Positions 1,123 through 4,787 of a stretch of DNA of 5,092 bases are shown piece by piece. Position 1 is the first letter of the stretch. Every line of letters starts with the position of its first letter. Under the pieces are notes generated by a model. That model had not been told where the DNA came from, did not search any database, and saw only the letters and a program-made list of their open reading frames with translations. A program made the position numbers and the translations under genes. The stretch is from Candidatus Poribacteria bacterium (GTDB lineage Bacteria > Poribacteria > DTPJ01 > WJIO01), in assembly GCA_014730235.1 (NCBI GenBank), contig WJIO01000119.1:1-5092 (forward strand). Direction: 5' to 3'.

Positions 1123-1137
1123 TGTAATAATTACTTA
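1116..1137 (+). terminator. Weak AT-rich hairpin between convergent genes, possible terminator
   Basis: Arms TAAGTGAT (1116-1123) and ATTACTTA (1130-1137) can pair in the plus-strand transcript over 8 bp with one G-U wobble, around a 6-nt loop. The hairpin spans the stop codons of both convergent genes. In the minus-strand transcript the wobble becomes an A-C mismatch, so it would be weaker there. No real U-tract follows on either side. It is the only candidate terminator in this 8-bp gap, and the low GC makes a functional intrinsic terminator doubtful. Confidence 0.22.
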
Positions 1138-2339
1138 ATTTCCTCAATAGACATCCACAACCCGCCTGTTTGCTTTGCAATATTTCTCTGGAACGGTTCA
1201 TCTTTGCCTATTACGTCTATAGTTACCTGAGAGCGTTTGGCAGCCCTTAACACATCGCTGACAGGATATGTTCCCTTTACATATTCATCTGTAACCAGTA
1301 TAAAATGCCTGTCTGCACCTGGACGAAATTTCACGTCATCAAAGGCTTTCATAAGCGCATCCAGAGCTCTTTCCCCTCCGCTGACGGCTATGGATTTCAT
1401 TATTTTCTTTATTTCCTTGATATCGGATGTTTGGTTGGTTATTGTTATATCCATACCAAGCCACTCATATACCACGCTGTGATGGAATCGAACAATACCC
1501 AGGGTAAAATCTACTTTAGCCTTTTGTAACCTGTCGATCATCTTGTCCAGATGCTTTCTCACTGCGTCTATATTATCCTGCATACTTTCACTGGTATCAA
1601 TAATAAAAGTAATATCCATCTGGCGGCTGTTTTTAACTGTTATCATGTGCTGGGCTATTTCCTGTAAAGCCCTGATAAGCGGCATTTCTGCTTCGTTATA
1701 GACCTGAAGTTTTTCGCCCAGGGATTCCTTCGATGGTATAATTCCTTCACGATCTACGGAGGTAAGGCCTCCCTGATTTTTACCCTGGCTTCTGGAACCT
1801 GAGTCAGAGCCTACACCTCTTCTGGATCCGCCTGCTCCTTTAGCTGATTCAGAGGAAGATACGCGGGTTGGCAGGGATGTACGGTCGGAAGAATCTTCAA
1901 TAACAGCGGGAATCTTACTTTCGGATTTATAATCAAGATCAGGTTTATTAACTACCGAACGTGGTGGGGTTGGTAATTTTTTACTGGAGTATCTTCCTTC
2001 AGGGGATCGGATGGTTCTTCTTCCACTGGTTCTATTTGGAGTATAAAATTCTCTTGCAGAGGGTTCGGGTTTATTTTTAAATTCTGATTCCGGAACGGAA
2101 ACCAGATCTACATAGACACTGTTGGGTACAGTATATGAACGCTTCTTCATTATTACATCTCTGAATATAACAAGAGCAGCTACATGCAAAACCAGGGAAA
2201 TAATCAGGGCCGTTTTGGTACGGTCTTTCCTTTTTTTCCGCTTTTGAATTCTGCGATTTGGCTTTTGCCATTTCTGTTCCCTTAATATGGCGGATATTTT
2301 ATCACTTCTTTGATTCTTCCAGATGGCTGTATACCTCAA
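1131..2339 (-). CDS. TonB-like-anchored periplasmic VWA-domain protein (5' end probably frameshifted)
   Basis: The open frame gives 402 residues. A very basic N-terminus precedes one membrane span (about 43-59, TALIISLVLHVAALVIF), then YVDLVSVPE, which together resemble the N-terminal anchor of TonB/TolA-type energy transducers. A low-complexity linker rich in Ser, Gly, Arg and Pro (about 85-200) follows. The C-terminal part (about 240-402) is a VWA domain with MIDAS residues DTSES (248-252), a GGE segment (321-323) and D351 in LVTDE. Expected topology is N-terminus in the cytoplasm and VWA domain in the periplasm. VWA domains with a complete MIDAS bind a divalent metal and contact partner proteins. 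The canonical TonB C-terminal domain is absent, so it is not a true TonB.

It is the last gene of the ABC operon. The frame's first start is a TTG at 2339 inside the preceding lipoprotein gene. The ATG at 2271, with TAAGGGA six nt upstream, is a much better start but is one base out of frame; see findings. The partner or substrate is unknown. Confidence 0.85.
   Translation of the reverse strand: MRYTAIWKNQRSDKISAILREQKWQKPNRRIQKRKKRKDRTKTALIISLVLHVAALVIFRDVIMKKRSYTVPNSVYVDLVSVPESEFKNKPEPSAREFYTPNRTSGRRTIRSPEGRYSSKKLPTPPRSVVNKPDLDYKSESKIPAVIEDSSDRTSLPTRVSSSESAKGAGGSRRGVGSDSGSRSQGKNQGGLTSVDREGIIPSKESLGEKLQVYNEAEMPLIRALQEIAQHMITVKNSRQMDITFIIDTSESMQDNIDAVRKHLDKMIDRLQKAKVDFTLGIVRFHHSVVYEWLGMDITITNQTSDIKEIKKIMKSIAVSGGERALDALMKAFDDVKFRPGADRHFILVTDEYVKGTYPVSDVLRAAKRSQVTIDVIGKDEPFQRNIAKQTGGLWMSIEEIK
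2278..2283 (-). promoter_or_regulatory. Shine-Dalgarno pointing to ATG at 2271
   Basis: On the minus strand AAGGGA, part of a longer TAAGGGA, lies six nt upstream of an ATG at 2271-2269. It is the best ribosome binding site near the 5' end of the VWA gene and sits 30 nt after the lipoprotein stop. The ATG opens MAKAKSQNSKAEKK, a plausible cytoplasmic N-terminus, but this frame runs off the VWA frame by one base after the A7 run at 2231-2237. The site therefore argues that the TTG start at 2339 is not the natural one. Confidence 0.55.
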
Positions 2340-2934: not shown

Positions 2935-3602
2935 TACAATATCCGTCCATCCTGCATTTCCAGGATTCTATCCGCATCGGTTCTGAGTCTTTCGTCATGA
3001 GTAACAACAGCAAAGGCCGTTCTTCTTTCATTGCAAAGTTTTTCTATTAGTTGCATAATGCTCGCGCTGTTTCTGCTATCCAGATTTGCTGTGGGCTCAT
3101 CGGCAAATACCACTAATGGGTTATTTGCCAGGGCCCTGGCAAATGATACCCTCTGTTGTTCGCCTCCGGAAAGCTGTGATGGTCTGTGATCCATCCTGTC
3201 CGGGAGTCCCACCTGTGTTAGTAATTCCTTTGCCCTTTCCTCAGCTTCATGTTCTTTTATGCCGGCTATATCCATTGCAATAATAACGTTTTCCAGGGCT
3301 GTCAGATAGGGAATAAGATTGAATAACTGGAATACAAATCCCACTTTTTCCCTTCTTATCATCGAAAGGTCTTCGCTGTCATAATCCACTTCCGTTCCAT
3401 CTATAATCAAACTTCCTGACGTGGGTCGCAGTATACAACCAAGCAGGCTGGTCAGGGTCGTTTTACCTGATCCGCTTTCACCCATTATCACCAGCAGTTC
3501 TCCCTCGTATATGGACATATTGACGTTATCCACAGCCACAACTGCGCTTTCACTTTCACCGAACTTCTTTGTAATATTTATTGATTCAATTAAGCTATTC
3601 AT
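2934..3602 (-). CDS. ABC transporter ATP-binding protein, LolD/MacB-like
   Basis: This 222-residue cytoplasmic ATPase is the energy-giving subunit of the permease encoded just upstream, and its size is normal for LolD/SalX-type subunits. All motifs are intact: Walker A GESGSGKTT (41-49), Q-loop Gln92 in FQLFNLIP, signature LSGGEQQR (144-151), Walker B LVVFADEP (163-170), D-loop NLDS (173-176) and switch His202 in VVTHD. The FQ.FNLIPYLTALENV stretch after Walker A is typical of the MacB/LolD/FtsE group, which power extrusion or mechanical work rather than import. The ATG follows the permease TAG directly (TAGATG) and has GAGGA at a suitable distance upstream, inside the permease gene's end. 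Its own stop overlaps the next ATG by one base. Function is clear at family level; the substrate is not. Confidence 0.95.
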   Translation of the reverse strand: MNSLIESINITKKFGESESAVVAVDNVNMSIYEGELLVIMGESGSGKTTLTSLLGCILRPTSGSLIIDGTEVDYDSEDLSMIRREKVGFVFQLFNLIPYLTALENVIIAMDIAGIKEHEAEERAKELLTQVGLPDRMDHRPSQLSGGEQQRVSFARALANNPLVVFADEPTANLDSRNSASIMQLIEKLCNERRTAFAVVTHDERLRTDADRILEMQDGRIL

Positions 3603-4787
3603 CTAACGTCCTCGAAAAGCGATCATAGGATCAACTGATGCGGCTCTCTTTGCCGCTATATATCCACCATACAGGCATACAGCCATGGTTATCACAGCTA
3701 CCAGAAGGGATTCGCTTGTACTTACTACCACCATTATTGGAAACACACCGGCAGCCAGATATGCCAGGATTATGCCGAGAATTATACCTGCCAGGGTCAT
3801 AATTACCACCTGCTTCAGAATTAAAGACACCACATATTTATCCGAAGCACCTATGGCTTTTAATACACCGATCTCCCGGATTTTTTCCCGGGTTGTGACG
3901 TATGTGATCATGGCCACGATAAGCCCTGTTGCGATCCAGAGCATTATTCGTAAAGCCTGAACCCCTTTCATTGGCTCATCAACGTAGTTTGCCAATATTA
4001 TTTCAACGATTTGATTGCCTGTATGGGCATCAACCCTTACTGTACTTCTCTCTTTAATTTCATTAGCCAGTTGCAGTGGATTGTACCCTTCTGCCACTTT
4101 AACCAGGACTGTATTTACATATATCACGTTAGACAATACAGTTTCCTGGGCTGTTCTTATGTCCATAAATAAAAGCGGCGTATCAAAGACAAAAAACTTC
4201 CCCCGGGTTTTTCCCACAACTCTTAGAGGTTTACCCGCAAGTTCCACATTCTGACCGATCTCTAACCCCGTCAATTCGTCAACTATGACTTCGCCGGGGG
4301 GGATATCCATAGGCCTGTAATCCTCGTATTGGCTGGATTGGAATAACCGACCTATTATAGGGTAAAACGGTGCGTTGGGATCTGTTTTGTCCTTTTCCGA
4401 TGGACCTCCCAACTTTCCCTTTTGATAACCAACCACCACGGCTTTTGTCTCTTTGCCGTTGATCACAGGTCTGGCCTGGGCAAATATAATTGGCGATAGC
4501 GGTATATCCTTATCAACACCTTCAAGGCTTCGCAGTATTTCCAGGTGTTCGCTGTTAAGTAGTGAAAAACCCGCGAAGGTACTTCCTGACCTTTCAGTAG
4601 AAAGCCAAACAGTTCCTGTTTCAGCCTGTTGTTCAACGGACTCCACATAATCTCTGGCCTGCATCCTTAACCCTTTCATTATACCACCCATAAGCAGTAT
4701 AAGGGCAACTAAACAGGCCACGCTTATTATTGTTAATACTATTCTGGCCCTTCTGTAGGCCATGTCTTTTAAAAATACATATTTCAT
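3603..4787 (-). CDS. ABC transporter permease, FtsX/MacB family (DevC/LolE-like)
   Basis: This 394-residue inner-membrane protein has the four-span plan of the MacB/FtsX superfamily. TM1 is at about 16-36, a large periplasmic domain (MacB_PCD-like) at about 37-278, and three C-terminal spans at about 279-298, 324-348 and 358-378. The family's cytoplasmic coupling segment is clear as REIGVLKAIGAS (304-315) after TM2, and the C-terminus closes with the usual VDPMIAFR (385-392). It would pair as a dimer with the ATPase encoded immediately downstream. Length fits single permeases such as LolC/LolE and DevC; it lacks the fused ATPase of MacB. No periplasmic fusion protein is encoded next to it. 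It is the first gene of the operon. No good Shine-Dalgarno precedes the ATG; Met9 is an alternative start, but the first Met leaves a more usual N-terminal stretch. Which substrate it moves, or whether it transmits force instead, cannot be told. Confidence 0.93.
   Translation of the reverse strand: MKYVFLKDMAYRRARIVLTIISVACLVALILLMGGIMKGLRMQARDYVESVEQQAETGTVWLSTERSGSTFAGFSLLNSEHLEILRSLEGVDKDIPLSPIIFAQARPVINGKETKAVVVGYQKGKLGGPSEKDKTDPNAPFYPIIGRLFQSSQYEDYRPMDIPPGEVIVDELTGLEIGQNVELAGKPLRVVGKTRGKFFVFDTPLLFMDIRTAQETVLSNVIYVNTVLVKVAEGYNPLQLANEIKERSTVRVDAHTGNQIVEIILANYVDEPMKGVQALRIMLWIATGLIVAMITYVTTREKIREIGVLKAIGASDKYVVSLILKQVVIMTLAGIILGIILAYLAAGVFPIMVVVSTSESLLVAVITMAVCLYGGYIAAKRAASVDPMIAFRGR

Follow-up and report, generated by a model that had tools for sequence, protein, structure and literature searches.

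Four genes on the minus strand of a 5,092-nucleotide Candidatus Poribacteria contig (positions 1131–4787) encode an ABC permease, its ATPase, a lipoprotein and a VWA protein. They raise the question of whether such a set constitutes a dedicated envelope machine, as the original prediction proposed, or a known transporter in local company. The window, i.e., the whole stretch of DNA analyzed here, is this complete contig of 5092 bases from a MAG of 5.5 Mb, and the upstream context of the operon lies beyond the contig end. On the evidence described below, the locus is best read as an ABC transporter of a known kind with lineage-specific envelope partners.

Gene organization of the window

The four reading frames abut or overlap (Table 1). 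The ATPase start abuts the permease stop, one base is common to the ATPase stop and the lipoprotein start, and the end of the lipoprotein gene overlaps the TTG start of the VWA gene by 38 bases. A single operon is therefore likely, and we infer that the four genes are co-transcribed. The presence of four tightly coupled genes was thus borne out by their coordinates, by the abutting or overlapping frames and by the domain matches. To the left of the operon lie part of a histidine kinase, which includes a receiver domain, and a solitary response regulator, both running toward it. No tandem repeats were detected within the window, and promoter and terminator scans of the window were uninformative.

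The only start of the VWA gene is the TTG inside the lipoprotein gene. An open reading frame at 2077–2271 of the minus strand has an ATG in a different frame (MAKAKSQNSKAEKKE...) and runs into seven consecutive A at window positions 2231–2237; a frameshift near the VWA N-terminus, be it an assembly error or real, is possible. At the contig end, a partial frame (4852–5092, minus strand) terminates in what by eye resembles the P-loop start of a broken AAA ATPase; a Pfam search with this frame returned no match.

Table 1. Features of the four-gene operon in the window and of related loci.
Feature	Position	Strand	Evidence or remark
ABC permease	3603..4787	-	MacB_PCD and FtsX Pfam matches, AF2 model, structural matches, phylum orthologues
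ABC ATPase partner, LolD/MacB/DevA-like	2934..3602	-	ABC_tran match, motifs, permease adjacency
Walker A (GESGSGKT) of the ATPase	3459..3482	-	motif scan
Discoidin-like (F5/8 type C-like) lipoprotein	2302..2934	-	sub-threshold Pfam match, profile match, lipobox, tree
Lipobox Cys21 of the lipoprotein	2872..2874	-	invariant alignment column
VWA protein: TonB/TolA-like N-terminal anchor, linker, C-terminal VWA	1131..2339	-	Pfam, alignment
Ser48-x3-His52 in the transmembrane helix of the VWA protein	2184..2198	-	invariant in 21/21
MIDAS DxSxS of the VWA domain	1584..1598	-	D248, S250, S252 invariant
Second MIDAS motif TDE	1284..1292	-	T350, D351, E352 invariant
Double-VWA proteins of family f5	L168:12098-14161, L169:12071-14140, L170:13234-15297		just after the ABC pair

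Fold and class of the permease and the ATPase

The permease was matched by the Pfam models MacB_PCD (E=1.7e-12) and FtsX (E=1.4e-12). A profile of 17 permease homologues compared with the PDB matched MacB, HrtB and FtsX, MacB being the closest sequence (E=1.3e-15). In an AlphaFold2 model (pLDDT 82.6), a long TM1 is followed by a periplasmic domain (approximately residues 56–256) and three more transmembrane helices, so that a single periplasmic domain separates TM1 from TM2 in a four-helix protein. The best structural match of this model was HrtBA (Z 26.7, rmsd 5.5, 333 residues), and since it aligned over its full length to HrtBA, LolCDE, YbbP and MacB, the permease was assigned to the type VII (MacB/HrtB-fold) transporters. 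The ATPase was recognized by ABC_tran (E=5.6e-35), and a motif scan found its Walker A, LSGGE signature, Walker B and H-loop intact. Its nearest named families were LolD, MacB and DevA, none of them above its cut-off. The structural model supports membership of the ABC pair in the mechanotransmission (type VII) class, and the pair presumably acts as a transporter with a homodimeric permease.

The lipoprotein and the VWA protein

The predicted discoidin fold of the lipoprotein rests on profiles, structure models having been made for the permease and for the barrel protein described below. The Pfam F5/8 type C model reached 23.5 bits (E=6.6e-5), i.e., below its cut-off of 28.2, and the lipoprotein profile matched IFT25-like chains of the discoidin fold (1tvg, E=3.5e-4). 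The predicted discoidin-like character is thus backed by the profile match, with a sub-threshold Pfam score. The lipobox Cys was invariant in 26 of 26 aligned lipoproteins, and the Ser at +2 suggests that the protein is probably sorted to the outer membrane. The family is spread across the phylum; named genomes scanned with only the lipoprotein as query gave no match. In a phylogenetic tree, the lipoproteins of the window and of G001, the only other genome of the window's taxonomic order, formed a clade beside phylum-wide orthologues, separate from the paralogues that the same genomes carry.

The other lipoprotein copies lie among other genes, none of them near the ABC pair outside the window's order; in other families their neighbours often include riboflavin genes and genes for a sigma-54 regulator, a rhomboid protease and EutN microcompartment proteins. 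A conserved Poribacteria cluster (L040, L042, L049, L053 and L055) comprises riboflavin genes, a GATase, a GAF histidine kinase, a sigma-54 regulator, EutN, a rhomboid protease and the lipoprotein; a gingipain-like C25 peptidase, about 1700 residues long, often comes next.

The VWA domain of the fourth protein was detected by Pfam (E=3e-13), and Ser48 and His52 of its N-terminal transmembrane helix were invariant in all 21 homologues, which establishes as real the TonB-like anchor attributed to it beforehand. In the SHLS motif of TonB/TolA, Ser-x3-His is the part that contacts the motor; the Leu of SHLS was kept in 12 of the 21 sequences and is Phe in the window protein, and the second Ser is not conserved. 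Between this His and the start of the VWA domain lie 162–197 residues across the 21 sequences, with a linker of about 190 in the window protein. A TolA/TonB-like layout was proposed in 2025 for 'vWA force transducers' (PMC12204202), of which many, not all, carry SHLS; that paper lists other phyla, and Poribacteria are not mentioned. Judged by its sequence, the window protein fits this class, which it would extend to Poribacteria, and looks like a transducer coupled to the proton motive force. With regard to metal binding by the VWA domain, also part of the original prediction, the DxSxS and TDE motifs were kept in all 21 sequences, but the loop-2 Thr position of the MIDAS is occupied by an invariant Glu (E323), so that metal binding is plausible and not certain.

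The VWA family is phylum-wide and encoded elsewhere in most genomes. No ExbB/TolQ motor genes were found among the scanned neighbours of VWA homologues, which included a multi-pass membrane protein family, glycosyltransferase-like by eye, at some loci and unrelated enzymes at others. ExbB/TolQ homologues occur at three loci in the window's genome (G000).

Distribution of the ABC pair and its neighbours in Poribacteria

Among named genomes, the closest permeases all came from Candidatus Poribacteria. Orthologues with 50–72% identity were present in most of the 84 genomes of the phylum that were searched, and the ATPase gene lay directly downstream of the permease gene at 66 of 69 loci. From these searches the pair appears close to universal in the phylum, and a nearly universal, uncharacterized ABC pair of Poribacteria is now placed in the type VII class.

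The four-gene arrangement did not show the synteny across genera expected of a conserved system. Of the 68 other loci, none encoded the lipoprotein and four encoded a VWA protein within 10 kb of the permease; in three of these four, all from one family (f5), it lies directly downstream of the pair. Conserved four-gene synteny was ruled out by these 68 loci, at which the permease and ATPase homologues almost always occurred without the lipoprotein and VWA genes. The three f5 loci encode, after the ABC pair, a double-VWA protein of about 690 residues, in which the His of SxxxH is changed to Tyr in both examples examined (L168 and L169); at the fourth locus (L221), the VWA gene is located approximately 6.5 kb from the pair. 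A VWA gene just downstream of the pair in two lineages is more than would be expected by chance, on a post-hoc estimate of about ten VWA genes in about 5000.

The usual neighbour of the pair is a different protein. A phylum-wide third gene, encoding about 470 residues, was found in the permease cluster at 56 of the 69 loci. Its product has a signal-peptide-like start and, in 53 of the 56 cases, a C-terminal Phe. The family had neither a Pfam match nor a sequence relative in the PDB; a model (pLDDT 70.5) consists of antiparallel strands, and the matches listed for it (50) were all outer-membrane barrels, with low TM-score. Since this barrel is the pair's usual neighbour elsewhere, the four-gene set is a local arrangement and not a conserved machine. 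The family is single-copy in Poribacteria and unnamed in Pfam (e.g., L127:9916-11433 and L133:10072-11490).

The barrel was present in 30 of 35 genomes tested and missing in G000, G001, G023, G072 and G075. Because the last three also have no close permease orthologue, this leaves G000 and G001 (completeness approximately 92% and 88%, respectively) as the only two of the 35 with the ABC pair and without a detectable barrel, which was not found in them even by profile search; the apparent absence could instead reflect a gap in the assembly or extreme divergence. The usual company of a single-copy barrel, together with the lack of a fusion protein, points to an envelope route common to the phylum. 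The window's order, where the barrel was not found and other envelope proteins stand in its place, offers a natural experiment.

In G001, the permease and the ATPase share a contig with a nucleotidyltransferase, a HEPN protein, a mannosyltransferase-like protein and the opening third of a GH123 gene. The lipoprotein and VWA genes lie on a second contig, which also holds the final third of a GH123 gene. Other GH123 pieces of G001 were only 61–66% identical in their overlap with the piece on the lipoprotein contig and do not fit as partners, so that the two contigs are most simply one locus. G001 thus probably also keeps the four genes at a single locus, interrupted by about four others, with the contig gap within GH123; on that reading, both genomes known from the order have the four genes as neighbours, although not contiguously in G001. 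The nucleotidyltransferase-HEPN pair right after the ATPase (L125:2163-2874) is toxin-antitoxin-like.

Alternative explanations

No fusion protein is encoded in the window, and up to a distance of 10 kb from the permease neither a fusion protein nor TolC was detected at the 69 loci, some contigs ending sooner. The absence noted originally was thereby confirmed, but not as an anomaly: the nearest folds (HrtBA, LolCDE, FtsEX and YbbAP) work without such a protein, which makes its lack ordinary, and many type VII transporters are likewise without one (PMC5985334 devotes a section to homologues independent of tripartite pumps, and PMC12646458 describes the type VII ABC pair YbbAP-TesA). A MacAB-type tripartite pump with its fusion protein and TolC encoded elsewhere would agree with the MacB-like fold and with the several fusion proteins of the genome. 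However, on the eight main contigs of G000 that carry them, these mostly adjoin an RND or ABC partner of their own or TolC (one locus being cut by a contig end), which does not favour a distant fusion protein for this pair; since, in addition, permease and ATPase are encoded by separate genes and the surroundings of all 69 loci were empty in this respect, we regard such a pump as very unlikely. Slimmer still is the chance that the pair is the organism's lipoprotein-sorting (Lol) transporter. Although the ATPase scores best with LolD and LolCDE is among the structural matches, the permease reached 10.3 bits with the LolCE model against a cut-off of 362 (E=0.23), while a separate LolC/E-like permease on contig C326 of G000 scored 316 bits and has its own ATPase next door. 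The Lol reading was rejected on this ground, and lipoprotein sorting, one of the functions first suggested, is disfavoured. The C326 permease and ATPase (L292:3501-5491) are likely a lipoprotein-sorting transporter, and a second pair of an ATPase and a short FtsX-type permease lies nearby, at 7334-8806.

The choice lay mainly between two readings of the shared operon. The one we favour, with a confidence a little short of even, is a type VII pair of the Poribacteria core, co-transcribed with two envelope proteins that the lineage has placed beside it. In its favour are the constant adjacency of permease and ATPase, the full-length structural matches, the distribution of the barrel, the invariant SxxxH, the ExbB/TolQ homologues, the independent VWA gene after the pair in f5 and the probable single locus in G001; the loss of the SxxxH His in the f5 protein speaks against it. 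Nearly as likely is that the genes merely share an operon, independent envelope modules of the phylum core having been shuffled together in this order. Each family is indeed phylum-wide and normally found at a different locus, and G001 has four unrelated genes seemingly between the ABC pair and the lipoprotein; against this speak the tight frame overlaps in the window, the occurrence of a VWA gene next to the pair in another family (f5) as well, and the fact that all three parts act in the envelope. A dedicated force-transmitting machine, in which permease and VWA protein act on an envelope protein or glycan via the discoidin-like lipoprotein, would account for the type VII fold, the invariant SxxxH anchor, the discoidin-like profile match and the tight operon, but it is unlikely given the neighbour counts at the 68 other loci and the occurrence of each gene without the others. 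Of the original idea of force transmission, what stands is a VWA protein that looks like a proton-motive-force-coupled transducer and an ABC pair of the mechanotransmission class; the four-gene machine does not, since permease and ATPase homologues almost always lack the lipoprotein and VWA genes beside them. More improbable again is a trans-envelope machine fuelled by both ATP and the proton motive force, with lipoprotein and transducer replacing the barrel. Since loci outside the window's order never place the lipoprotein next to the pair, its coupling to the pair rests on one or two genomes, and a four-part machine is possible for that order only.

Under the favoured reading, of a core type VII pair with lineage-placed partners, the stalk and periplasmic domain would open and close at the expense of ATP. 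From the outer leaflet of the inner membrane, this motion would carry away a substrate of lipid-like or amphipathic nature, or transmit a conformational signal, as HrtBA, LolCDE and YbbAP do. The barrel would serve the outer-membrane end in most Poribacteria, whereas in the window's order the lipoprotein and the VWA transducer, the latter driven by an ExbB/TolQ-type motor encoded elsewhere in the genome, would serve the envelope side instead. The gene anatomy is observed; substrate transport by the pair and its coupling to partners here we infer.

Comparison with known systems

The closest likeness was to HrtBA, the Gram-positive heme exporter, which also has a four-TM permease with one extracytoplasmic domain, a separate ATPase and no fusion protein. 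In contrast to HrtBA, the pair described here belongs to diderm Poribacteria, usually has a barrel as neighbour and shares 20% identity; the likeness is one of fold and of the absent fusion protein. With MacB of MacAB-TolC the permease shares the MacB_PCD and FtsX domains, but its ATPase is a separate chain and neither MacA nor TolC is present at the locus. The resemblance to LolCDE consists in the fold class and the LolD-like ATPase. Compared with the DevBCA models, the proteins reached 53 of 290 bits (DevC) and 203 of 296 bits (DevA), at a locus without a fusion protein.

Like the vWA force transducers of PMC12204202, the VWA protein combines an N-terminal helix bearing Ser-x3-His with a long linker and a C-terminal vWA domain; unlike them, it is not beside tolQ/tolR, and its family does not conserve the Leu and the second Ser of SHLS. 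Finally, YbbAP-TesA (PMC12646458) is likewise a type VII pair with no fusion protein and a periplasmic partner that is not a channel. That partner is a lipid hydrolase, whereas the pair in the window is accompanied by a lipoprotein and a VWA protein, and its relatives by a barrel.
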